From: Cyanobium sp. FACHB-13342
Lineage (GTDB): Bacteria; Cyanobacteriota; Cyanobacteriia; PCC-6307; Cyanobiaceae
DNA: 64,000 nucleotides
Assembly (NCBI RefSeq): GCF_014697415.1
Contig: NZ_JACJRT010000001.1
Span: 62,001 to 126,000 of the forward strand
Reading direction: 5' to 3'
The translations under genes were made by a program, and so were the position numbers. The notes under the pieces were generated by a model. The model was not told the DNA's origin. It saw only the letters and a list, made by a program, of their open reading frames with translations, and ran no database searches. How positions within the stretch are numbered: position 1 is the first letter of the stretch; each line of letters opens with the position of its first letter. Below, piece after piece: positions 18,715-34,374 of this stretch.

Positions 18715-19659
18715 TTAGGTGAGGGGGCGAGCCGGATCCAGTCCCTCCACTTCCCCAGCAAACACCCGGCTGGCCGTGATGTCCTCGGCCTCGATCGTCA
18801 TCAGATCGCGCTTGGTCAGCGGGCTCCCCATGCGGCTGAACAGGCGGTTGGCCTGGCGCATCCGTGACCGGTCGATGGCGTTGCGGATCGAGCGGGCATT
18901 GGCGAAGAACGGCAGCTGCATCCGCCTGTGGATGTAGTCCGAGAAGGCAGCAGTGGCCTCATCGCTGAAGCGGTAGTTCTCAGCCGCAAGCACGAGACGG
19001 GCAATCGCCAGCAGCTCATCGGCGCTGTAGTCGGGGAAATCGATGTGGTTCGCCACCCGCGACGACAGCCCCGGATTCGACTGGTAAAACACATCCATCC
19101 GATCCTTGTAGCCGGCGAAGATCACCACGAGGTCGTCGCGGTTGCTCTCCATCACCTGCAACAGGATTTCGATGGCCTCGGCCCCGTAGTCCCGCTCGTT
19201 TTCTGGTCGGTAGAGGTAATAGGCCTCATCGATGAACAGCACGCCGCCCATCGCCTTCTTGAGCATCTCCCGGGTCTTGGGGGCGGTGTGGCCGATGTAC
19301 TGCCCCACCAGGTCATCGCGGGTGGCCGTCACCACATGGCCTTTGCGCACGTAGCCCAGCCCGTGCAGGATCTTGCTCATCCGTTCCGCCACGGTGGTCT
19401 TTCCCGTGCCGGGCCGCCCGGTGAAGGACATGTGCAGGCTGGGCGGGGTGGTGTCCAAACCCACCTGCTGGCGCGCCCGATCCACCACCAGCAGGGCGGC
19501 GATCTCGCGGATGCGGGCCTTCACGGGCCGCAGGCCGATCAGCTCCTGGTCCAGTTGATCCAGCATCGCCTGGATGCCCGCCCCCTCATAGGCGGCCTGC
19601 AGATCAATGACCGTGTTGTCCGAGGACGCTGCGGCGGAACTGTCAGCTGGGGAGCCCAT
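18715..19659 (-). CDS. cbbX: RuBisCO activase CbbX
   Basis: CbbX is a hexameric AAA+ motor that removes inhibitory sugar phosphates from RuBisCO by threading its large-subunit C-terminus. The 314-aa protein has Walker A GRPGTGKT (81-88), Walker B VLFIDE (140-145), the pore-loop region [11 protein letters not shown], and sensor/arginine elements in [12 protein letters not shown]. It is the last gene of the carboxysome island, seven bases after acRAF, as expected for alpha-cyanobacteria. A role on Form IA enzyme is inferred from that context. Confidence 0.92.
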
Positions 19660-19666
19660 GGGGGAG

Positions 19667-19924
19667 TTAGGCGATCAGGGCATCGATGGCAGCAGCGAAG
19701 GCCCATTCGGGCTCGGCGATCAGGGCCTCTTCCGCTTCAGCCCGCACGGTGAGATTCACGTAGGTGCGGCCGAAACTGATGTCGGGGAAACGCTGCTGCT
19801 CCTCACAGAGGGCATTGAGCCGCTCCAGAAAGTCGCGGGTGGTGGCGTAGTCATCAAATTCCAGCCGCCGCTCCAGCCGCTCGGGCTGATCGGGTTTGGG
19901 GCGGGGAGTCCAGGCTTGATCCAT
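19667..19924 (-). CDS. Carboxysome-locus pterin-dehydratase-like RuBisCO assembly factor (acRAF)
   Basis: This 85-aa protein has a pterin-4a-carbinolamine-dehydratase-like fold: [19 protein letters not shown], then [15 protein letters not shown]. In alpha-carboxysome clusters this family (acRAF) acts as an assembly chaperone for Form IA RuBisCO and has lost dehydratase activity. The ATG at 19924 gives the normal length; extension to 20056 would run into chpX. It lies 10 bp after chpX and 7 bp before cbbX. Confidence 0.85.
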
Positions 19925-19934
19925 GGCTTCGACG

Positions 19935-21077
19935 CTACGCCTCCAAGCAGTCGGTGCGGGCGATACCCAGGCGTTGGGCCCAGGCGCCGGCATAGGCCGC
20001 GTTGGCCGCCCGGGCCTCCGGATCGGTGCTGTCCAGTGGGTGGGGCATGGTGCCATTGATGGCCGCGTTGGTGACGCAGAACATCGACTTCTGGAAGCTC
20101 ATGCAGATCTTCACGCGCACGTCGCCCTCGCCGCGGGTGCGCTCCCGGTACCACTGGTGCAACCGCTCCGGCAGGTGGCGGTACATGTCCTGCATCAGCA
20201 GGCTGGGCGGAATCCCGGAGCCCATGCTCGGCAACGGATCGGCGTAGAGGGCCCCGTAGGTGAACTGGGCCTGGTCGGGGGAGATCTGCTGGGCCTGGGC
20301 GTTGAAGCTCACGGTGCCGAGGAAGGGCATGCCGCGCAGGAACACCGCTTCCACATAGGGCACCGCCACATCCACCAGAAAGGTGAGCCCCGCCTCCGGC
20401 GGCAGCACCCAAAAGTGCTCACCACCGATCTGCACCCCGTACTCAATCGGGTTGGCGGCGGCAGCCACCAGGCCGTTCTTGATGAACTCCACCACCGCCG
20501 CAATGGAGCGCACCCGGCCATCCGCTTCGGCGGCGGCCAGATCCAGGAACAGATCGCTCATCACCCGCCAGAACTGACCCAGGGCATGGGTGGTGGCCGC
20601 CGAGCGGATCATTTCCGGCAGGAAGCCCGGGAACAGCGGGTTGAGGATGGCCAGCAGGGGATCCCGCCGGCTCTTCGCCGCAATGATCCGCCTGCAATTG
20701 GCGGCGAAGGCCTCGGAATCGAAGTAGGCGTCCATGCCGCCCGTGGCATGCCAGAACATCGCCTTCTGGCAGTACTCCGCGTACTCGAAGTTGATGCGGT
20801 CGTGGTTGAGATGGCGCCAGATCTTGGCGGGATTCAAATCGCCATCGAGATATTTGAAGATCGGAAATGGATTGAGGAATTGATGCTCGGCCTGGTAGAT
20901 CAGGTTGATGCTGTAGGCATCCAGCACTTCGCCATAGCTCTTGAGCACATCCACCACCTCCACCAGGTGGTCGGCGCTCTCGCCCAAGAGGGTTTCACCG
21001 GCCAGCAGGCGCCGTTGCACCTCCTCCCGTTCGATCGAGAGGTTGGCCTGCACCAGCTCGGCGGGAATGATCGGCAT
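19935..21077 (-). CDS. chpX: CO2 hydration protein ChpX (CupB-like)
   Basis: ChpX/CupB binds specialised NDH-1 complexes and is thought to convert CO2 to bicarbonate on the cytoplasmic side of thylakoids using redox energy. The 380-aa protein matches the family in length and in segments such as FPIFKYLDGDL, FEYAEYCQKAMFWHATGGMD (near residue 98) and YRERTRGEGDVRVKICMSF. No membrane helix is obvious. It starts one base after the ndhD4 stop, so ndhF4-ndhD4-chpX form one operon. That pairing with D4/F4 indicates the constitutive, lower-affinity CO2 uptake system. Confidence 0.88.
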   Translation of the reverse strand: MPIIPAELVQANLSIEREEVQRRLLAGETLLGESADHLVEVVDVLKSYGEVLDAYSINLIYQAEHQFLNPFPIFKYLDGDLNPAKIWRHLNHDRINFEYAEYCQKAMFWHATGGMDAYFDSEAFAANCRRIIAAKSRRDPLLAILNPLFPGFLPEMIRSAATTHALGQFWRVMSDLFLDLAAAEADGRVRSIAAVVEFIKNGLVAAAANPIEYGVQIGGEHFWVLPPEAGLTFLVDVAVPYVEAVFLRGMPFLGTVSFNAQAQQISPDQAQFTYGALYADPLPSMGSGIPPSLLMQDMYRHLPERLHQWYRERTRGEGDVRVKICMSFQKSMFCVTNAAINGTMPHPLDSTDPEARAANAAYAGAWAQRLGIARTDCLEA

Positions 21078-22598: not shown

Positions 22599-24464
22599 TC
22601 AGAGCGCTCCCCGCCACACCTGGAGCGAGACCAGCAGCAACACGATCGCCATGACCACCGTGAGCACGTAGCTCTGCAGTTGACCACTGATGCTGAACTT
22701 CAGTCCTTCGGCCGTGGTGAGCGAGAGGCGGCCCACCCCATCCACCAGCCCCTTGATCACGGTGATGTCAAACCAGCGGGTGAGACGGGCCAGGGACGCC
22801 ACCAGAAAGACGATCGTGCGCTTGTAGATCTCAGGCGTGTAGAAGTCGTAGGCGAGCAGATCCTGCAGCACCCGCAGGGTGGGCTGGGTGGAGCGCGACC
22901 AGAACTGATCGAGACGCACCAGAGAGCCAATCACCAGCCCCAACAGGCCGCTGCCGGCCACCGCCAGACCCACCGGCAGGGGGAAGGCGGCAATGCCGGG
23001 CACCGGATCGATGCGCTGCATGATCCAAGGCAGCAGCACCACCAGCACCGAGAGGCTCACCATCGGCAGGGCCATCCACCAGTTGACCTCGGGGGCCCGC
23101 TTGGTCTTGGGCCGCACTGGGCCGAGAAACACCGAGCGGTAGACACGGGTGACGTTGGCGGCGGCCAGCAGATTGGTGAGCAGGAACACCAAGGCGAACA
23201 GCGGCGCATCGAAGCGCAGGCTCTCCACCATCAGCCCCATACACCAGAAGCCGCCAAGGGGCAGCAGCCCCAAAAGACCGGCACTGCCCAGCAGGAAGGC
23301 CATGGAGGTGGCGGGCATGCGGGTGCCCAACCCGCCCAGTTCGGTGAGGTCCTGGCAATTGGTGGTGGCGATGATGCTGCCCACCCCCATGAACTGCAGC
23401 GCCCGGGCCAGGCCATGGGCAAACAGCAGCAGCAGGGCAATGCCGGGAAGCTGGAGGGCGATGGCGATGAACACCAGGCCCAGATAGGAGGTGGTGGAGT
23501 AGCTGAAGGCCCGCTTGAGATCCACCTGGGCCAGGGCCACCAGGGCGCCACCCACGGCGCTGATGCTGCCCACCGCCAGCAACACCTGGGTGGCCAGGGG
23601 GGAGAGGGCCACGATCGGCATCAGCTTCATCAGCACGATGGCGCCGCAGGTCACCACCACCGAATTGCGCAGGATCGAGGCGGGGTTCGGACCCTCCATC
23701 GCCTCATCCAGCCAGAGATGCATCGGGAACTGGGCGCACTTGCCCATCGGACCCGCAATCAGGCCAAGCCCCAGCAGGGTGCCGGCCAGGGGGCTGATCA
23801 GCTGCTGCTCCCGGGCTTGGGCGGCCCAGGCATAGAGATCGTTGAATTCCATCGAGCCCGCCCAGGCCGAAAGCGCCACCACCCCCATCAGCAGCAGCAC
23901 ATCGCCGACGCGTTTGGTGAGGAAGGCATCGCGGGCCGCCGTCACCACCAGGGGCTGGGCATACCAGAAGCCCACCAGCAGGTAGGTGGAGAGGGTGAGC
24001 ATCTCCAACAGGAAATAGCTCATGAACAGGTTGCTGCTCAGCACCACGCCGCTCATGGCCCCCTCGAAGAAACCCACCAGGGCAAAGAAGCGGGCCAACG
24101 ACCACTCCTTGTCCATGTAGCCGAGGGCGAACACCTGGCAGATCAGGCTCATGGTGGTCACCAACTCCAACGCCGCCAGGTTGGTGAGGGAGAGATCGAA
24201 GCCGATGCGCAGGTTGAGATCGGCCGCCTGGAACCAGGGAAACTCCAGGTGCTGGGGGCCCAGGATCCACACCTGCTGGAGGATCAGGGAGCTGTGCGCC
24301 ACCGCCAGCAGGGTGACCAGCAGGTTCAGGTAGGCCGCCGGACGGGGACCATTCCGCTTGAACCACCCCGCCGCCCAGGGCAGCGAGAGCACCATCCCGC
24401 TGAACCCGTAGAGGGGAAGCAGCCAGGCCAGCTGGATCGGGAGTGGCAGGGGGGGGGCGAACAA
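22599..24464 (-). CDS. ndhF4: NDH-1 subunit F4 (CO2 uptake)
   Basis: This is the distal proton-pumping subunit paired with NdhD4. The 621-aa protein has about 16 hydrophobic segments. Typical elements include YFLLEMLTLSTYLLVGFWYA with the conserved Glu, and DLKRAFSYSTTSYLGLV with Lys. The C-terminal part holds the long amphipathic-helix region. Translation appears to start from a TTG at 24464, since no ATG or GTG fits the normal N-terminus. It is the first gene of ndhF4-ndhD4-chpX, 86 bp after the bacterioferritin-like gene. Confidence 0.88.
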   Translation of the reverse strand: MFAPPLPLPIQLAWLLPLYGFSGMVLSLPWAAGWFKRNGPRPAAYLNLLVTLLAVAHSSLILQQVWILGPQHLEFPWFQAADLNLRIGFDLSLTNLAALELVTTMSLICQVFALGYMDKEWSLARFFALVGFFEGAMSGVVLSSNLFMSYFLLEMLTLSTYLLVGFWYAQPLVVTAARDAFLTKRVGDVLLLMGVVALSAWAGSMEFNDLYAWAAQAREQQLISPLAGTLLGLGLIAGPMGKCAQFPMHLWLDEAMEGPNPASILRNSVVVTCGAIVLMKLMPIVALSPLATQVLLAVGSISAVGGALVALAQVDLKRAFSYSTTSYLGLVFIAIALQLPGIALLLLFAHGLARALQFMGVGSIIATTNCQDLTELGGLGTRMPATSMAFLLGSAGLLGLLPLGGFWCMGLMVESLRFDAPLFALVFLLTNLLAAANVTRVYRSVFLGPVRPKTKRAPEVNWWMALPMVSLSVLVVLLPWIMQRIDPVPGIAAFPLPVGLAVAGSGLLGLVIGSLVRLDQFWSRSTQPTLRVLQDLLAYDFYTPEIYKRTIVFLVASLARLTRWFDITVIKGLVDGVGRLSLTTAEGLKFSISGQLQSYVLTVVMAIVLLLVSLQVWRGAL

Positions 24465-24550: not shown

Positions 24551-25018
24551 CTAGAAGGTGGCCCGTTCCATCGACGGATCATGGTTGGGGCCCAGGCTGC
24601 GCAGCCAGGCGCCCAGCTCCTCAGCGTGATGTTGTTCGTCCGTCCAGAGGGCCTGGAAGAAGGCTTCGCTGGCGGCATCACCCACCAACACGCAGAAGCG
24701 CACCGCCTCGGCGTAATGCTGGATCAGGTCTGCTTCGAGGGTGAGGTCGAGCCGCAGCAGGCCAGCCAGGTCGGGGGCATGGCCCACGGGCCGCAGCTGG
24801 GACGCAGCTGGTGCCACCCCAAGGGCCAGCATCCGCTGGACAATCTGCTCGGCGTGCTGCAGTTCCTCCACGGTTTCGCGGCGGAAACGGGTGGCCGCCT
24901 CAGCCTCTCCCCAGAGCTCCACAAGGGAGGCCTGGGTCATGTACTGCTGAACGGCAGAGAGCTCAAGGCTCAGGGCGCGACCGAGATAACCCAGGACGCG
25001 CGGATGAACGGCGCCCAT
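24551..25018 (-). CDS. Bacterioferritin-like protein of the carboxysome locus
   Basis: The 155-aa four-helix protein keeps all six di-iron ligands of bacterioferritin at the expected spacing: Glu19, Glu52, His55, Glu95, Glu128 and His131. The haem-ligand Met of bacterioferritin, the residue right after the second Glu, is Leu53 here. It therefore probably oxidises or stores iron without haem, or is a related ferritin-like oxidase. It starts six bases before the csoS1E stop region ends, on the same strand, tightly within the cso cluster. Similar genes are known from alpha-carboxysome loci, but their role is unresolved. Confidence 0.85.
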   Translation of the reverse strand: MGAVHPRVLGYLGRALSLELSAVQQYMTQASLVELWGEAEAATRFRRETVEELQHAEQIVQRMLALGVAPAASQLRPVGHAPDLAGLLRLDLTLEADLIQHYAEAVRFCVLVGDAASEAFFQALWTDEQHHAEELGAWLRSLGPNHDPSMERATF

Positions 25019-25023
25019 GGGAA

Positions 25024-25671
25024 TCAGAGACGGCGGATGGTGGCGGTGCCGGTGAGGGCGGGCTCCACTTCACTGTGGGGACGGGCAATGATGTGGGCCG
25101 CCACCAGGCCATCACCAACGCGCTCGCAGGCATCGGCACCGGCGCGCACGGCGGCGTTGACCGCACCGGTTTCGCCGCGGACCATCACGGTGACGTAACC
25201 GCCGCCGACGAATTCGCGGGCAATCAGGGTCACTTCAGCCGCTTTGGTCATGGCGTCAGCGGCTTCAATCGCCGGCACCAGGCCACGGGTTTCGATCATG
25301 CCGAGGGCGATGCCCTGAATGGAAGGAGCCATGGCGTTGCTGCGCGAGGGGGTGGATGGACGGTTGGTCCCGGCGCCGCCGCCGGTACCGGATGGGGTGG
25401 CACTGGAGCGACGGGTCGTGCTGGATGCACGGCCGCCACTGGCCTTGGCGGCAGTCCTGGGAGCTGCCTTGGCCGCCGGTTTCGCGGCGGCCTTAGCGGC
25501 TGCAGCCGGTTTGGCCGCCGCTGCCGGCAGGGCCTTGGGGGCCGCTGCCGCGGGGGTTGAGCCCGCCGCCGTACCCGTCGCCGGCGTGGTGCTAGCTGCC
25601 GCTGCCGCCGCAGGGGCGGGTTTGGCAGCGGCAGCGGCGCTGGGGGTGGGTCGGGGAGTGGGGGTGGCCAT
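25024..25671 (-). CDS. csoS1E: Carboxysome shell protein CsoS1E (BMC-H with long N-terminal extension)
   Basis: The 215-aa protein has about 112 residues of Ala/Pro/Lys-rich low-complexity sequence followed by one BMC domain (about 117-205). The BMC part is almost the same as CsoS1A; I count two changes over some 86 residues, Thr for Arg in AAEVTLIAREF and Ser for Arg in ARPHSEVEP. It should form shell hexamers, with the flexible, basic extension reaching to one side, perhaps contacting cargo. It lies between csoS4B and the bacterioferritin-like gene. Confidence 0.88.
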   Translation of the reverse strand: MATPTPRPTPSAAAAAKPAPAAAAAASTTPATGTAAGSTPAAAAPKALPAAAAKPAAAAKAAAKPAAKAAPRTAAKASGGRASSTTRRSSATPSGTGGGAGTNRPSTPSRSNAMAPSIQGIALGMIETRGLVPAIEAADAMTKAAEVTLIAREFVGGGYVTVMVRGETGAVNAAVRAGADACERVGDGLVAAHIIARPHSEVEPALTGTATIRRL

Positions 25672-25734: not shown

Positions 25735-25986
25735 CTAGCCGTCTGGCTCCCAGAAATCGATGATTCCGCCGATCGTCAGATCGGTCTGCACCTCGGGATT
25801 GCCGCAGGCAAAGCGGGCCGCCGATCCGCTGGCGGTGAACACCCAGTTGCCCGGGGAGGCCCCCACCGGATCGACGGCGACGCTGAGTTTGCCCTTGGGG
25901 GTGCGCAGCACGCGCAGGTTGGAGTGGTCGAGACCGGGCACCCGCTGGGTGCACACCAAAGAGCCCGTGACCTGCATGATTTCCAT
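25735..25986 (-). CDS. csoS4B: Carboxysome shell vertex protein CsoS4B
   Basis: An 83-aa BMC-P (CcmL/EutN) protein that forms pentamers capping the vertices of the icosahedral shell. It begins MEIMQVTGSLVCTQRVPGL and ends TIGGIIDFWEPDG, matching the family. Its ATG shares one base with the csoS4A stop (TAATG), so the two pentamer proteins are translationally coupled. Confidence 0.93.
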   Translation of the reverse strand: MEIMQVTGSLVCTQRVPGLDHSNLRVLRTPKGKLSVAVDPVGASPGNWVFTASGSAARFACGNPEVQTDLTIGGIIDFWEPDG

Positions 25987-26285
25987 TACTTGGTCCCTCC
26001 CGCTGACGCCGGGGGAGCACCCGGAGCGGGGGCTTTGGCCGCCTCGGGATCCCAGTGGTCAATGATCCCGACAATCGTCAGGTCGCTCGGGTACGACTTG
26101 CTGCCGGCCGCTTCACGGGCTGCGGAACTGCCCACGCAGATCACCCAGTCCCCGGGGATGCAGCCCACCGCATCCACGGCCACCTTCTGGGTGCTGCCAT
26201 CGAGCACCACCTGGAGGTGCTTGTGCTCGAAATCGGGAATGCGGTTGGTGGAAACCAGGGGCTTGATCACCTTGCAGATCAACAT
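25986..26285 (-). CDS. csoS4A: Carboxysome shell vertex protein CsoS4A
   Basis: A 99-aa BMC-P pentamer protein for shell vertices. It reads MLICKVIKPLVSTNRIP at the start and has TIVGIIDHWDPE near residue 80, followed by a short Ala/Pro tail that CsoS4B lacks. It starts one base after the csoSCA stop and overlaps csoS4B by one base, keeping the standard order csoS2-csoSCA-csoS4A-csoS4B. Confidence 0.94.
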   Translation of the reverse strand: MLICKVIKPLVSTNRIPDFEHKHLQVVLDGSTQKVAVDAVGCIPGDWVICVGSSAAREAAGSKSYPSDLTIVGIIDHWDPEAAKAPAPGAPPASAGGTK

Positions 26286-26286
26286 G

Positions 26287-27828
26287 TCAGTGCCCTCCTC
26301 CGCTCGCGAATGTGATGGTGGAACCTACCGCCTCTGCAGGGGTATGGCGGTCCTGATCCCGCACGGTGAGCAGGGCGTGGAGCAGGCCCTGCGCAAACAG
26401 GTCGGGATAGCGGTTTTCCATGGCCGCCTGCACCCGCTGGCAGTTGCGGATGGCCCGCTCCCGGGCGCCCGGCACCTGGCTGTTGTAGTCGAAGCGAACG
26501 ACCACGGGCACCGGTAGACCACGGGAGACATTCAGACCCTTGAAGATCTTCACGCCCACATCCAGATCCGGCGCACCCTCTTCCACCGTGTCCATGTAGG
26601 CGAAGTAGGTGAGATTGCGCAGGTGGATCTCCTTGAACCCAATACCCACACCGATGAAGCGTTCGGCATGGCCGGCATCGGCGTAGCTACCGCCGTGCAC
26701 CTGCCGCACGTAGTCGATCTGGGAGAGATTGTGCTCTAGCAGACGGGCAATGAGCTGCACCATGCCGGGATCGGGGCTGCTGGCGGCCGCCTGCTCCACC
26801 ATCGCCAGGATGCGGGCCCGGCCCTCGTCGGGATTGAGATGGCGGGTGGCGTCGTAGACCGCCTGGGCATCCAGCCACCGCTCCAGGTTGGTGCTGCCGT
26901 CCATGCCGGGCACATGCACCCGAATGGTGTCGGTATCGGTGTCGATGCCCATCAACAGCAGATCCACCGACGCCCCGCAGCAAAAGCTGTTTTCCACCGC
27001 CTGCTGGAAATCCTTGAGCCGGGAGAGGCCACAGGAGGCCGCCAGGGCATCGTCGCTGCCGTGGGCGGCGCAACCTTCGCGCAGGGGATCCTTGGAACTG
27101 AAGTGGTAGATCACCACCTTCAGGTAGCGGGTGTCGTCGTGGGCGGGATTGGGCAGCCCTTCGCGGTAGCGGCGGTGCTCGGTCTTGACCCAGCGGTTCA
27201 CCGTGTTCTCCACATCGAACAGGGCACCCGCATGGGAACGGCGCCGCACCGCACTGAAGGGAACCCGCAGGGCATAGGCCACCGCGTGGGCCAGACGGCC
27301 ATCGGCGCAGGGCGTGATGTCGAGCAGGTGGAAGCCGCAGGAGAGCAGGAACGCGTTGAACGCTTCACCGGCGGGGCTGCCGGGCTTGCCCGCCAACGGA
27401 TCGTGCTGGAAGAAGGCGTCGCTGGTCTGCTCGTAGGTCTCGAACAGGCACCAGGCAAACAGGGTGCGCATGTCGAGCTGGCTCACCCAGGCCTTCTCCA
27501 GGATCGGCAGGGGCAGCTCAAAGCCGAGCTCGGCCCGGGCCAGACGCTGGGCCTGTTCAATGAAATCGGGCTCGTGCTGGAGCGCGGAGAGGCGCTTGAG
27601 CACGGGCACAATTCGGTCGAAAGCCCCTTTCACCTGCTCGTCGTAGGCCTGCAGGGCCGCATTGGCCTGGCGATCCGTGAGGGGATGGAGGCCAACCGCT
27701 GCCGACCGTCCCATGCGTCCGCCAGCGAGGGGCCGGGAGGGCTCGCCCGTGCTGGCGCCGCTGGGGCGACGGCGGGGAGCCGTCGGCGCCAGGGGGCGGT
27801 AGGGAGTGGACGAGCGACGGGGGGGCAT
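26287..27828 (-). CDS. csoSCA: Carboxysomal carbonic anhydrase CsoSCA (CsoS3)
   Basis: The enzyme dehydrates bicarbonate to CO2 inside the carboxysome, next to RuBisCO. The 513-aa protein has a disordered basic N-terminus, a helical domain, then a beta-type carbonic anhydrase fold with the C-x-D-x-R signature CADGR (Cys174, Asp176, Arg178) and likely remaining zinc ligands His256 and Cys266. The C-terminal half is the usual degenerate duplicate domain. The N-terminal stretch, rich in Arg and Pro, probably binds CsoS2 or RuBisCO. It lies seven bases after csoS2. Confidence 0.94.
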   Translation of the reverse strand: MPPRRSSTPYRPLAPTAPRRRPSGASTGEPSRPLAGGRMGRSAAVGLHPLTDRQANAALQAYDEQVKGAFDRIVPVLKRLSALQHEPDFIEQAQRLARAELGFELPLPILEKAWVSQLDMRTLFAWCLFETYEQTSDAFFQHDPLAGKPGSPAGEAFNAFLLSCGFHLLDITPCADGRLAHAVAYALRVPFSAVRRRSHAGALFDVENTVNRWVKTEHRRYREGLPNPAHDDTRYLKVVIYHFSSKDPLREGCAAHGSDDALAASCGLSRLKDFQQAVENSFCCGASVDLLLMGIDTDTDTIRVHVPGMDGSTNLERWLDAQAVYDATRHLNPDEGRARILAMVEQAAASSPDPGMVQLIARLLEHNLSQIDYVRQVHGGSYADAGHAERFIGVGIGFKEIHLRNLTYFAYMDTVEEGAPDLDVGVKIFKGLNVSRGLPVPVVVRFDYNSQVPGARERAIRNCQRVQAAMENRYPDLFAQGLLHALLTVRDQDRHTPAEAVGSTITFASGGGH

Positions 27829-27835
27829 CAGGGAT

Positions 27836-30214
27836 TCAACCGCGGGCTCCGCCGGACACGGTGATCAGGGAGCCTGCAGTGGTGTTGCCACTGGAGCCGG
27901 TGACCCGACTCACCGGCTCGGGACGCTCCTCGTTGCGCTTGGCCTGGAACGCCGGCATGGCGGCCATCGAACCGGGACGGGTCGGGTTGCGGCGACGGGC
28001 GGAAGCGCCCTCGGTTCCCGTGACCCGCTCACCCCGATCCCAGTCGTCGCCGGTGATCTTCAGCCCAGCTGAGATGCCTTCGCCGGTGACCCGGGACATG
28101 GGGCGGGCATCCTCATCGACGCTCACGGGAGCGTCCATGGGGCTGCGCTGAATCGGAGCACGCTCGATCGGACCGCGGGACAGCTGGGGGCCGCGGCGGT
28201 CGAAACGGAACTGCTCGGTGCCGGTGACCTTGTCACCGGCCATGTCAAAAGGGCCGGTAACCCTGCCACCCTGCTCGTAGCTGTTTCCCGTGACCGAGCC
28301 ACCGCGTTCTCGCCCCACCTGGGCCGCCCTGGCGGGCGACTGAATGCTGAACTGCTGCCAGGGCTGGCTGCCGGCCAGGGCCTGGGGAAAATCGGCATCC
28401 TGGGCAGCGGCGGCGCCACAGGCTTCCACCAGCTGGTCGTTGCCGATGTAGGGCGTGCCGGTGACGGCCTCACAGGCCCCACGCTCGGCGCCGGTCATCA
28501 CGCCGCCGATCCCCGGCTGGATCCCGCTCATCCGATTGGAGCCCCGCACGGGGGTGCGCTGGCGGATGGCGCCCACGGCCTTGCCGCTGCAGAAATCCCC
28601 GGCCTGCTCCAGGCCGGCATAGGGGGTGCCGGTTACCGCCTTGCAGGTGCCGGGCTCATCGCCGGTCACGTTGGTGGACCGGCCCGTGCGGGTACCGCTC
28701 ACCACCTGGGCCTTGTTGGTGACACTGAAGCCAACCTTGGGGGCCTCTGGAGCGGGTTTGGTGCCGCAGAAATCGGCGTACTGCTGGCTGCCCACGTATT
28801 CATCACCCGTGACCAGGCGGCAGCTGCCGGGTTCATCACCGGTGACATGCTCACTGCGGCCCACATGGGTGCCGGTGATGCCGGTGCCACGCAGGGTATG
28901 GAGGCTGGCCACCTTGGTGGGGGCCCGGCCGGTCACCTGGCTTTGGTCAGCCACATATTGGGTGCCGGTGAGCTGCTTGCCGGAGCCGGGCTCATCGCCG
29001 GTCACCTTGCTGGAGCGGCCCACCATCACCCCCGAGACGGGTTGGCCGCCGAGGGTCTGGCTGCGACCCACCTTGCGGGGGGACGGGGTGGTGCCACCGC
29101 AGTAGGCGGCGGATTGGTTGGCGGACACGTATTCGGTGCCGGTGACGTTCTTGCAGGTGCCGGGCTCATCACCGGTGACCTTTTCGGAACGACCGACCTC
29201 ATTGCCGGTGACCCGGTTGCCATGGGTGGTGGCCGTGACCCGCACCTTGGCGGGCTGGGAGGCGACAGGACCGCTCTGGCAGAAGGTCTGGAACACCTCA
29301 GCGCCGAGATATTCGGTGCCGGTGATGGCGCGGCAGGTGGCCGCTTCGTTGCCGGTGGTCTTGACGGAGCGGTTGGCCTGGGTGCCGGTGACCACCTGAC
29401 CGGAGCTGGTTTCACTCACGCCCACCTTCCAATGGGCATCGCTGGCGGCGGATTGCTTGGCGCCATGGCGATTGGGGCCCGAGGGGCGGGTGCCGCCACT
29501 GCGGGAGGAGCCGGCACTGCCGACCTTGGCCCGCAGCTCCCGCACCTTCTGGGAGAGCTCGCGGGCGCTCATGTCGGGGTTGCCCTGACGGGACACGGTC
29601 GCCGCCGTGGTGCTCCGGGGGGTGCTGGCCGACTTGCCCCGCTTGGAGAGGGCTTCACGGCGCGCCAGCACCAGGGCACGGCTGGGATCGCGCTGGGCCG
29701 TGCGCTTCGGCGTGGAGCGGCGCTCGGCGCCCTGGCTGGCGGGGCTGCTGAGGCTGCTCAGGGCCGGGGCGGCCTGACGGGTTTCGCCCTGGCACTTGCA
29801 GGGCTTCTCAACGGCAGGGGCAGCCGCAGCGGCGGGGGCTGGGGCGGATTTCGCCAGATCGGTGCGGGTGCGATCGGTGGAGGAATCGGCCCGCTTGCCG
29901 CGCTTGGAGAGGGCTTCCCTTCGGGCCAGCACCAGATCACGGCTGGGGTTGGCGATTGGACGGGCCGCGCTGCGGTGGCTGCCGCTGGATGGAGCAGCCA
30001 GGCTGCGGCTGGGAGCTACGGCCCTGGCCGGAGCTGGGGTTGGGGCTGCGGGAGCGGACTCGACCGCAGCCGCGGCGGTACGGGTAGGCCGGGCATCCTC
30101 CACCGAGCGCACACGGCTCGGACCGGAGGTAAACCGGCTGGCGGCTTTCTTGCCACCGTTGGTGAGGGCCCTGCGGCGCTCCAGAGCTGCTTCCCGGCTG
30201 GATGTGCTGGCCAT
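27836..30214 (-). CDS. csoS2: Carboxysome scaffold protein CsoS2
   Basis: CsoS2 is the disordered linker that bridges RuBisCO and shell. In the 792-aa protein the N-region has four RuBisCO-binding helical repeats (about 7-26, 92-110, 178-196 and 216-232; two share LVLARREALSKRGK). The middle region has six shell-interacting M-repeats (about 264-312, 324-372, 381-428, 434-483, 493-542, 553-599) built on VTG and GTEY motifs. The C-region has further VTG repeats and ends in SSGNTTAGSLITVSGGARG. Five M-repeats carry Cys pairs or a single Cys, but the third has none. Alpha-cyanobacteria make mainly the long form; no frameshift site was identified by eye. Confidence 0.94.
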   Translation of the reverse strand: MASTSSREAALERRRALTNGGKKAASRFTSGPSRVRSVEDARPTRTAAAAVESAPAAPTPAPARAVAPSRSLAAPSSGSHRSAARPIANPSRDLVLARREALSKRGKRADSSTDRTRTDLAKSAPAPAAAAAPAVEKPCKCQGETRQAAPALSSLSSPASQGAERRSTPKRTAQRDPSRALVLARREALSKRGKSASTPRSTTAATVSRQGNPDMSARELSQKVRELRAKVGSAGSSRSGGTRPSGPNRHGAKQSAASDAHWKVGVSETSSGQVVTGTQANRSVKTTGNEAATCRAITGTEYLGAEVFQTFCQSGPVASQPAKVRVTATTHGNRVTGNEVGRSEKVTGDEPGTCKNVTGTEYVSANQSAAYCGGTTPSPRKVGRSQTLGGQPVSGVMVGRSSKVTGDEPGSGKQLTGTQYVADQSQVTGRAPTKVASLHTLRGTGITGTHVGRSEHVTGDEPGSCRLVTGDEYVGSQQYADFCGTKPAPEAPKVGFSVTNKAQVVSGTRTGRSTNVTGDEPGTCKAVTGTPYAGLEQAGDFCSGKAVGAIRQRTPVRGSNRMSGIQPGIGGVMTGAERGACEAVTGTPYIGNDQLVEACGAAAAQDADFPQALAGSQPWQQFSIQSPARAAQVGRERGGSVTGNSYEQGGRVTGPFDMAGDKVTGTEQFRFDRRGPQLSRGPIERAPIQRSPMDAPVSVDEDARPMSRVTGEGISAGLKITGDDWDRGERVTGTEGASARRRNPTRPGSMAAMPAFQAKRNEERPEPVSRVTGSSGNTTAGSLITVSGGARG
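29633..29935 (-). repeat. Direct repeats encoding CsoS2 N-repeats 2 and 3
   Basis: Two blocks of about 42 bases, at 29633-29674 and 29894-29935, encode the same 14 residues (LVLARREALSKRGK) within csoS2. The DNA is closely similar but not identical, showing synonymous drift. The copies are 261 bp apart and reflect the protein's repeat structure rather than a mobile element. Confidence 0.75.
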
Positions 30215-30333
30215 GTCCGCCCGTCGAATGGAGTGTCTGAAAAGAGGCCGATCAGTCCGCAGCGCGAACCGACCCGCAAAGAAAGGGGATGGGGGTCCCG
30301 GTGGTCAACCAGAACCCCACGGGGTGCTGAGAA

Positions 30334-30675
30334 TCAGCGACCTTCGAACACCACGAAGCAGGCACCCTGGCTTTGGGTGTAGGCGTCGTAGCCCACCAGA
30401 CGCACGTGGTGGTCGGGGTAGGCGCGGTGGCAAGCCTCGAGCTCACTCACAATCACACCCAGATCCTTCTCGCCGAAGAAGGGCAGCTTCCAGAACGACC
30501 AGTAGGTCGCCATGGAGTTGCTGGGATGGACGTGCTCAACGAGCGGGCTCCAACCCTGGGCAATGATGTAAGCAATTTGGTCGTAGATCTCGTCCTGGGT
30601 CATCGGCGGGAGGAAGCCGAAGGTCTCCAGGGTGGCGACTGTTTGGTAGTCACCCACGGTGCTCTTGAAAGGCAT
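30334..30675 (-). CDS. cbbS: RuBisCO small subunit, Form IA
   Basis: The 113-aa small subunit completes the L8S8 holoenzyme. It has MPFKSTVGDYQTVATLETF at the start, GWSPLVEHV, and YWSFWKLPFFGE, all typical of Form I small subunits. The ATG at 30675 gives the standard length; the frame's extension to 30717 is rejected. It lies 128 bp after cbbL and about 120 bp before csoS2. Confidence 0.96.
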   Translation of the reverse strand: MPFKSTVGDYQTVATLETFGFLPPMTQDEIYDQIAYIIAQGWSPLVEHVHPSNSMATYWSFWKLPFFGEKDLGVIVSELEACHRAYPDHHVRLVGYDAYTQSQGACFVVFEGR

Positions 30676-30803
30676 GGGGATCCTTGTGTGGATGGAATGG
30701 TTGAACCCTGATTCCAAGGGTTCGGATCGCGTTCACTGGAGTGGTCTGGCCGGGAATGGGGGTGCCGAAGACTCGGCAACCGCCCATTTCCAACCGACGA
30801 ACC

Positions 30804-32216
30804 TCAGTTGACGTCGAGCTTGTCGACGGTGTCGAACTCGAACTTGATTTCCTTCCAGGTCTCCAGGGCGATCGCCAGCTCGGGGCTGTGCTTCGCAGCT
30901 TCCAGAAGGATGTCGCGACCTTCGCGCTCGATCTCACGACCGGCGTTACGGGCCTTGACGCAAGCCTCAAGAGCCACCCGGTTGGCAGCGGCACCAGCGG
31001 CGGAACCCCAGGGGTGACCGTGGGTACCACCACCGAACTGCAGCACCGAGTCGTCGCCGAAGATGGCCACGAGGGCGGGCATGTGCCACACGTGGATACC
31101 GCCGGAGGCCACGGCGAACACGCCGCCCATGGAACCCCAGTCTTGGTCGAAGAAGTTGCCGCGGCTGCGATCTTCGGGAACGAAGGATTCACGCAGCTGG
31201 TCGATGTAGCCGAGGGTCGACTGACGGTCGCCTTCGAGCTTGCCGACCACGGTGCCGGTGTGGAGCTGGTCACCACCGGAGAGACGCAGGCACTTGGCCA
31301 GCACACGGAAGTGAATGCCGTGCTTGGGGTGACGGTCAATCACCGCGTGCATGGCACGGTGAATGTGCAGCAGCATGCCGTTCTTACGGCACCACTTGGC
31401 CAGACCGGTGTTGGCCGTGAAGCCACCGGTGATGTAGTCGTGCATGATGATGGGCTGGCCCAGTTCTTTGGCGAACTCGGCACGCTCATACATCTCCTCA
31501 GGAGTGGCGGCGGTGCAGTTGAGGTAGTGCCCCTTCTTCTCGCCGGTTTCCTGTTCGGCCAGCTTGACGGCTTCAGCCACGAACTCGAAACGGTTCTGCC
31601 AGCGCTGGAAGGGCTGGGAGTTGATGTTCTCGTCGTCCTTGGTGAAGTCGAGACCGCCACGGAGGCACTCGTACACGACCCGGCCGTAGTTCTTACCGCT
31701 CAGGCCGAGCTTCGGCTTGATGGTGCAACCCAGCAGGGGACGGCCGTACTTGTTCATCCGGTCGCGTTCCACGACGATGCCGTTCGGGGGACCCATGCAG
31801 GTCTTGATGAACGCCATCGGGAAGCGGATGTCTTCCAGACGCAGGTGGCGCAGAGCCTTGAAGCCGAACACGTTGCCGACCAGGGAGGTCAGCACGTTGG
31901 TGATGGAGCCTTCCTCGAACAGGTCGAGGGGATAGGCGATGAAGGCATAGAAGGATTCCTTGTCGCCAGGAACGTCTTCGATGCGGTAGCAACGGCCCTT
32001 GTAGAAGTCGAGATCGGTGAGGAGCTCGGACCACACGGTGGACCAGGTGCCGGTGGAGGATTCAGCGGCCACAGCGGCGGCGACTTCTTCCTTGGGCACA
32101 CCTTCCTGGCCGGTGCACTTGAAGCAGGCCAGCAGGTCGGTGTCGAGGGGGACGTAATCAGGAGTCCAATACGTGTCGCGGTACTCCTTGACCCCGGCGT
32201 CGTACTTCTTAGCCAT
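30804..32216 (-). CDS. cbbL: RuBisCO large subunit, Form IA
   Basis: This is the catalytic subunit for ribulose-1,5-bisphosphate carboxylation. The 470-aa protein contains the active-site motifs [25 protein letters not shown] (with the carbamylated Lys in this segment), and the loop 6 region [10 protein letters not shown]. The N-terminus [17 protein letters not shown] and the cso gene context mark it as the Form IA type of alpha-cyanobacteria, not the Form IB of other cyanobacteria. It starts 77 bp after csoS1A and heads the central carboxysome transcript with it. Confidence 0.97.
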
Positions 32217-32804: not shown

Positions 32805-33086
32805 TCAGAGCGGTTCCGCATCGGCCACATAGGCCACGCCGCCGTAGTAATCCAGCAAGGGCTGGATGCCTTCCCGCAATTTGGGCAGGATCCCGGCCTC
32901 ACAGAACACGATGACGTGGGCATTGGCCCCCAGGCCGCTGAAATCCATGGCGTCGGAGACCCACCCGTGGGGGCCCTTGCCGGTGACGTGCTTGATCACG
33001 GAGTAGCCCGGCGCTCCAGCCGCATCCACGGCCTTGAGCACCGCATCCAGTTCCCGTTCGCTCAGGATCAGATCGACGCGTTTCAT
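32805..33086 (-). CDS. sbtB: PII-like regulator of bicarbonate transport SbtB
   Basis: SbtB is a trimeric PII-like protein that binds adenine nucleotides (cAMP, AMP, ADP, ATP) and regulates SbtA. The 93-aa protein shows the small ferredoxin-like fold pattern, with VDLILSERELDAVLKAVDA at the start and GHGW-like GKGPHGW in the loop. It ends at ADAEPL, so the C-terminal CGPxGC redox loop of some beta-cyanobacterial SbtB proteins is absent. It follows sbtA after a three-base gap, which fixes the identification. Confidence 0.88.
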   Translation of the reverse strand: MKRVDLILSERELDAVLKAVDAAGAPGYSVIKHVTGKGPHGWVSDAMDFSGLGANAHVIVFCEAGILPKLREGIQPLLDYYGGVAYVADAEPL

Positions 33087-33089
33087 GGG

Positions 33090-34085
33090 TCAGGGAGCGG
33101 CGGGAAGAACGGCATTGACCAACACCATGTAGAGCGGGATGCCCACGATGATGTTGAAGGGGAAGGTGACCCCTAGGGCCGAGGAGATGTAGAGGCTGGG
33201 ATTGGCCTCCGGCACGGTCATGCGCATGGCCGCCGGAACGGCGATGTAGGAGGCGCTGGCGCACAGCACCACAAACAGCAGGGCATTGCCGGGCCCCAGC
33301 CCCAGCCCCCGGGCCAGCAGCACGCCCACAAGGGCGTTGAACAGGGGCATCAACACCGAGAAGGCGATCAGGAAGGCCCCGGCCTGCCGCAGATCCCGAA
33401 TCCGCTGGGCCGCCACGATGCCCATGTCGAGCAGAAAGAAGCTCAGAGCCCCGTAGAAGAGCTTGTCGCTGAAGGGCTCCATCTTGACGATGCCGGCGGG
33501 GCTGTAGGCCGCCACCAACAGTCCGATCACCAGGCTGCCCACCAGCAGAAACACGGAGCTGTTGAGGCAGGCCTCACGCAGCACCGCCCCCCAGCGCATG
33601 CCCGCTGCGCCCGGCCGCTTCTGGGGAGCAGCCAGGGTTACCAGCAGCAGACCCACGATGATCGCGGGCGACTCCATCAGGGCCAGTGCCGCCACCATGA
33701 AGCCATCGAAGGGCAGCTTCTGGGTTTCCAAAAAGCTCTCGGCGGTGATGAAGGTGACCGCACTGATCGAGCCGTAGGTGGCCGCAATGGCTGCGGCGTT
33801 AAACCCATCAAACCGGGTTTTCAGCACCAGAAAGCTATAGAGCGGCACCACCAACGACATGGCAACCGCTGCGCCAATGGTGGGGAGCACCTGTCCGCCG
33901 AGGCCGCTGTGCTGAAGCTCCAGCCCGCCCTTGAAGCCGATGGCCAGCAACAGATACAGCGAGAACAGTTTGGGCAGGGGCGACGGAATCTCCAGATCGG
34001 AGCCCACCAGCACCGCAATCACCCCCAGGAAAAAAAACAGAACCGGAGGGGAGAGCAGGTTCTGCAGGATCAGGCTTGAATCCAT
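33090..34085 (-). CDS. sbtA: Sodium-dependent bicarbonate transporter SbtA
   Basis: SbtA imports bicarbonate with high affinity using the sodium gradient across the plasma membrane. The 331-aa protein has about ten hydrophobic segments in two inverted halves. Family segments include FFLGVIAVLVGSDLEIP, YGSISAVTFITAESFL and CASASYIAVPAAMRM. The ATG at 34085 (MDSSLILQNLLSPP) matches the family; extension to 34145 is rejected. It forms an operon with sbtB and diverges from rdgB across about 290 bp. Confidence 0.93.
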   Translation of the reverse strand: MDSSLILQNLLSPPVLFFFLGVIAVLVGSDLEIPSPLPKLFSLYLLLAIGFKGGLELQHSGLGGQVLPTIGAAVAMSLVVPLYSFLVLKTRFDGFNAAAIAATYGSISAVTFITAESFLETQKLPFDGFMVAALALMESPAIIVGLLLVTLAAPQKRPGAAGMRWGAVLREACLNSSVFLLVGSLVIGLLVAAYSPAGIVKMEPFSDKLFYGALSFFLLDMGIVAAQRIRDLRQAGAFLIAFSVLMPLFNALVGVLLARGLGLGPGNALLFVVLCASASYIAVPAAMRMTVPEANPSLYISSALGVTFPFNIIVGIPLYMVLVNAVLPAAP

Positions 34086-34374
34086 GGCGCCAAACTCCAG
34101 TGGGACCGCTTCAGGCCTGCCGCAACCGTAGGTCGATTGGGACAACCGGCTGTCAGCGGCCGCTCAAATTTCAGCCCTGACGACAAGAAACCAGGCATTT
34201 CTGCCTACGGTCTTGTCGGAACCGGCACCCCTGGAGCCATTCAGGGGGTGGAATGTTCAACCCAGCCGGTTCCCCCCCAATCCGTCAGCGATCCTGCGCC
34301 CCCTACTGGGGCCTCTGGGGAATGGCGCCCGTGGGCTGGTCTTGCGACACAATGGCGTCCCCCGGGGTTCGTGG
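34086..34374. other. Divergent intergenic region, sbtA / rdgB
   Basis: These 289 bases separate the start codons of sbtA (minus) and rdgB (plus) and should contain both promoters. An open plus-strand frame continues in from rdgB but has no conserved character. A clear -10/-35 pair or a low-CO2 regulator site could not be assigned by eye. Confidence 0.4.

Follow-up and report, generated by a model that had tools for sequence, protein, structure and literature searches.

A bacterioferritin (Bfr) gene 3' of alpha-carboxysome operons was described in 2007 (Marin et al., PMC1904183) and again in 2014 (PMC4207490), and bacterioferritin is listed in over half of the chemoautotroph loci (Axen et al., 2014, PMC4207490). 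Such bfr-like genes follow the csoS1 genes in the Paulinella chromatophore, Synechococcus WH5701, Nitrococcus, Acidithiobacillus and Thiodictyon, the same position as that of the gene studied here. The gene was kept in the Paulinella chromatophore and transferred together with the operon (PMC1904183), and bfrA of Acidithiobacillus ferrooxidans lies inside the cbb1/cso cluster and belongs to one operon by RT-PCR (PMC2942843). The gene is missing from marine relatives that have alpha-carboxysomes (PMC1904183), thus carboxysomes can function without its product. Although the gene has been listed at the end of these operons since 2007, we found no function for it in the literature searched. For purified carboxysomes of Cyanobium PCC 7001, a strain that may or may not carry the bfr-like gene, a 9-gene operon and 9 proteins are reported and Bfr is not named in the main text (PMC10689251); the main text of the Halothiobacillus neapolitanus carboxysome stoichiometry study does not mention Bfr either (PMC9040747).

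Among characterized bacterioferritins, residues K33, Y45, D56, E60 and E128 of E. coli Bfr have been named critical for oligomerisation, and exchange of the same five positions in Magnetospirillum gryphiswaldense Bfr1, a ferroxidase subunit without part in haem binding, has been blamed for its poor homo-oligomer formation (PMC6529640). Magnetospirillum Bfr carrying M52L is haem-free and still active as a ferroxidase (PMC6529640). The ferredoxin Bfd is the partner of Bfr in haem-mediated iron release (PMC7762939). Here we analyze the bfr-like gene in a stretch of 64,000 nucleotides from Cyanobium sp. FACHB-13342 (the window, to which all positions refer).

Results

The bfr-like gene is the last gene of an alpha-carboxysome operon

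The initial annotation had pointed to an open reading frame at 24551-25018 without giving its strand. The frame is real; it lies on the minus strand, starts with ATG at 25018 and encodes a four-helix ferritin-like protein of 155 aa, as judged by translation, Pfam, PDB search and AlphaFold2. The protein matches the Pfam Ferritin family PF00210 with 72.4 bits (gathering cut-off 24.5, E 4.6e-20) and its best PDB relatives are bacterioferritins (1jgc, Rhodobacter capsulatus, 4.3e-20). The NCBIfam bacterioferritin equivalog TIGR00754 is not reached (66.9 bits vs. a cut-off of 125.55), and an encapsulin-type ferritin (EncB, NCBIfam NF058679) was rejected at 21.8 bits vs. a cut-off of 90. Comparison with close orthologues gave dN/dS values of 0.13-0.23, indicating purifying selection.

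Directly upstream lies csoS1E (25024..25671, minus), a shell protein gene with a BMC domain and a CsoS1 equivalog match whose product carries a disordered N-terminal extension. The gap between the two genes is 5 bases (25019-25023) and not six as first stated, and the same 5-base gap is found in most orthologues. The rest of the operon core, csoS4B, csoS4A, csoSCA, csoS2, cbbS and cbbL, occupies 25735..32216 (minus) and was assigned by profile matches, with cbbS assigned from its sequence only. Since a second csoS1 also lies upstream in addition to csoS1E and these core genes, the bfr-like gene is the last gene of the alpha-carboxysome operon. The next gene downstream, at a distance of 86 bp, is ndhF3 of the inducible CO2-uptake NDH-1 complex (22599..24464, minus; TIGR01960 over cut-off). 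A search for promoter- or terminator-like sites around the csoS1E-bfr-ndhF3 junctions found none.

Other genes of this region were noted in passing. An SbtA-type bicarbonate transporter gene (32805-34145, minus) and a small P-II-like (SbtB-like) gene immediately precede the cso operon. The same cluster holds, some 4.5 kb past bfr, a gene for a pterin-4a-carbinolamine dehydratase-like protein (19667-20056, minus; Pfam Pterin_4a, 30.6 bits) that resembles the Rubisco assembly factor acRAF, and the acRAF-type gene was reported in 2007 to be unlinked to the carboxysome operon in most alpha-cyanobacteria (PMC1904183). A CbbX-type Rubisco activase gene (18715-19659, minus; TIGR02880, 523.9 bits) closes this CO2-fixation cluster. 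The N-terminal extension of CsoS1E is Ala/Pro-rich and in the clear cases varies from about 60 to 200 residues across relatives. In five loci (L094, L010, L015, L022 and L096) the csoS1 gene upstream of bfr seems to have its ATG right at the BMC domain; loss of the extension in these loci is unproven because the script may have picked an internal ATG or run into the end of a contig.

The bfr-like gene was detected in 143 of the 400 genomes of the family that were searched. Linkage was read from Thiodictyon and from 77 distinct cyanobacterial sequences, for one of which the contig is cut off too soon to show the upstream gene; in every fetched locus with upstream sequence, bfr directly follows a csoS1-type gene, which bears out the earlier claim that a di-iron ferritin-like protein is tied genetically to the alpha-carboxysome operon. 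The link of the protein to the carboxysome is thus a genetic one, given by operon position. On the other side, ndhF3 is the neighbor in nearly all orthologous loci. A strict tie of bfr to the CO2-uptake NDH genes was rejected, as ndhF3 scores over cut-off in 207 of the 400 genomes, is therefore more widespread than bfr, and occurs without it (for example in genome G197). Thiodictyon syntrophicum encodes a protein 51% identical by tblastn at the same place of a plasmid-borne carboxysome operon. No bfr-like gene was found in the plasmid carboxysome locus of Nitrobacter hamburgensis (plasmid records), and no relative of the protein turned up in a single scan of viral contigs.

The di-iron site is complete and the haem ligand varies

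All six ferroxidase ligands are present at Bfr spacing, as the initial annotation had reported, each numbered one higher than its aligned counterpart in E. coli Bfr. Glu19 (codon 24962..24964, minus; E18 in E. coli), Glu52 (24863..24865, minus; E51), His55 (24854..24856, minus; H54) and Glu128 (24635..24637, minus; E127) are found in 78/78 distinct orthologues, and Glu95 (24734..24736, minus; E94) and His131 (24626..24628, minus; H130) in 77/78 each. Tyr26 and Trp36 are also invariant (78/78). The protein shares with canonical haem bacterioferritins (E. coli Bfr, 1jgc) the four-helix fold (TM ~0.85), the di-iron ligands and the residues Tyr25 and Trp35 of E. coli numbering. It differs from them in the lack of helix E and in the replacement of Y58, W133, H46 and the cage contacts; furthermore, the haem Met is optional in the carboxysome-operon family, and Bfd is missing from this genome.

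The position of the haem-ligating Met52 of Bfr is occupied here by Leu53 (codon CTG at 24860..24862, minus). The earlier observation is correct for this protein and does not extend to the family, in which Met (56 of the 78 distinct orthologues) is commoner at residue 53 than Leu (21) or Ile (1). CTG and ATG differ by one base, and at least 11 Met/Leu changes are required on a tree built without column 53 and without the tail (mean of 17.8 with shuffled labels). The protein falls into a small Leu53 clade of four, and the Thiodictyon protein also has Leu53; it is one of several Leu branches within a family where Met prevails. This protein cannot form the bis-Met haem of Bfr and, judged by sequence, should lack Bfr-type haem. 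With Met in most orthologues and repeated Met/Leu changes, haem loss is not defining for the family, so that a haem-free state was dropped as its hallmark.

The genome is 99% complete, and a search for Bfd ferredoxin (PF04324) gave no match over cut-off, though the control matched. The role of haem in the Met53 orthologues is therefore probably not the standard iron release from Bfr, and haem-mediated iron release is unlikely for the carboxysome-operon protein. There is only one Bfr-type gene in this genome; separately encoded are Dps and an orthologue of SynFtn, the marine Synechococcus ferritin, which shares the ferritin superfamily but belongs to a separate family and lies outside the cso operon.

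A predicted disordered tail with a conserved end stands in place of helix E

Structure prediction, which the initial annotation had proposed as a check, returned a four-helix ferritin-like fold with a disordered tail in place of helix E. AlphaFold2 (mean pLDDT 90) places only four helices in this protein (6-35, 39-65, 84-112 and 115-141), followed by residues 142-155 (24554..24595, minus) as a tail with pLDDT 46-63. The Met53 orthologue L016 (mean pLDDT 86) is likewise predicted with four helices and a disordered C-terminal part without helix E. These models suggest loss of the bacterioferritin fifth (E) helix across the family. By alignment, the E. coli oligomerisation residues K33, Y45, D56, E60 and E128 are replaced by E34, R46, E57, Q61 and Q129, and the inner-surface iron-site residue His46 of Bfr by Arg47. 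With helix E predicted absent and the contact residues exchanged, an ordinary 24-mer is doubtful, and the protein probably does not form the standard 24-subunit cage with a mineral core. Ferritins without helix E can still form 24-mers. A parallel in the exchanged residues is M. gryphiswaldense Bfr1, in which the same five positions are replaced and which has no part in haem binding (PMC6529640); Bfr1 differs in that it pairs with a Bfr2 subunit, whereas a single Bfr-type gene is present here.

The tail ends in the peptide RATF (24554..24565, minus; consensus [QED]-R-A-[TS]-F), and R-x-x-F is found in 69/78 orthologues. The R, A and F positions have entropies of 0.5-0.7 bit, compared to more than 3 bits per position in the linker, which is mostly 16-18 residues long after Trp138 (up to 42), rich in Gly/Pro/Ser/Arg and without a predicted helix. 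Across the orthologues, Arg is encoded by all six of its codons and Ala and Thr by four each, so it is the peptide itself that is conserved. Overlapping DNA signals are an unlikely source of this conservation given the six Arg codons, the 86 bp before ndhF3 and the lack of a terminator or promoter match. The motif is absent from 6/78 orthologues, mostly the most divergent ones, by at least three changes on the tree. The Thiodictyon protein, the sole proteobacterial sequence compared, ends in RRRALR, and the tail motif is that of the cyanobacterial orthologues. We rejected RATF as a tag used generally across the genome, since a scan for CGN-Ala-[Thr/Ser-like]-Phe-stop, which covered the CGN arginine codons and left out AGR, hit only the bfr-like gene with a true stop. 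Short docking peptides typically show this combination of variable linker and fixed end, and we infer docking from it. Encapsulated ferritin-like cargo (EncB) offers a functional analogy, as its C-terminal docking peptide serves a protein compartment; the compartment here would be the carboxysome, docking is putative, and the EncB model scores far under its cut-off. The lost helix E and the conserved C-terminal peptide set the protein apart more than its haem position does, and we found neither of them described in the literature searched.

Discussion

It is well supported that the protein is carboxysome-dedicated, derived from Bfr and di-iron, and that haem is dispensable for it; its docking, partner, substrate, oligomeric state and protective role are what we infer beyond this. 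As a whole we tentatively favor, at somewhat less than even chances, a carboxysome-dedicated Bfr-derived di-iron ferroxidase that probably forms no classical iron-storage cage, docks to a partner through its tail and protects against Fe2+ and oxidant. The protein would have kept the ferroxidase di-iron site and shed, or ceased to need, the haem-cage traits of Bfr. It would be made together with the shell proteins and may be dimeric or form some other small or non-standard oligomer, with the flexible tail ending in [QED]-R-A-[TS]-F docked to a partner, for which a carboxysome component is the most plausible candidate. Free Fe2+ would bind at the di-iron site and be oxidized with O2 or H2O2, which may spare Rubisco and the carboxysome from Fenton chemistry. 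The more specific proposal that [QED]-R-A-[TS]-F brings a ferritin-fold protein lacking the cage-closing helix E to alpha-carboxysomes, as an overlooked redox- or iron-active component, is possible and rather doubtful.

The strongest rival, which we regard as on the unlikely side, is an ordinary bacterioferritin iron store, i.e., a 24-mer with a mineral core that shares the operon without a physical link to the carboxysome, the shared operon perhaps letting iron storage follow growth on CO2. Its fold and ferroxidase site as in Bfr, the haem Met kept in most orthologues and the main texts of the carboxysome proteome papers, which do not name Bfr (PMC10689251, PMC9040747), all fit such a store, but the replaced cage contacts, the predicted loss of helix E and the change of the inner-surface His46 to Arg47 do not. 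Nor does the genomic setting: no Bfd over cut-off in the genome, a SynFtn orthologue and Dps already present, and a bfr-like gene never found outside the cso operon in the loci seen.

The tail could be read differently. Since MAFFT sets the end of E. coli helix E (NYLQAQI) over SMERATF, the RATF end may be what is left of helix E, folding back so that it lines pores or stabilizes the assembly, and not a docking peptide. We consider this unlikely, because the linker in front of it is variable in length, rich in Gly/Pro/Ser/Arg and without a predicted helix.

With its complete di-iron site the protein could also be an enzyme that consumes O2 or peroxide and so controls O2 level or redox state inside the carboxysome, and O2 scavenging has been proposed for a cyanobacterial Dps in heterocysts (PMC7762939), but such an enzyme would have to be fed continuously with electrons or Fe2+, the locus shows no reductase partner and the lumen location is unproven, which make it very unlikely. 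The original proposal, by which this di-iron protein is specifically haem-free and is defined in its carboxysome role by that lack, has in its favor Leu53 here, in the three closest relatives and in Thiodictyon as well as the active haem-free M52L Bfr (PMC6529640), and is the least probable of all, as Met prevails at the same locus position (56/78) and a single-base change lets the residue drift between Met and Leu (at least 11 changes).

Deleting or transplanting four tail residues offers a direct and simple test of organelle membership. The loss of helix E and of the cage contacts speaks against labelling the protein an iron store by default. If docking is true, carboxysomes would gain an iron- and oxidant-handling component, which may be relevant to engineering carboxysomes in plants.
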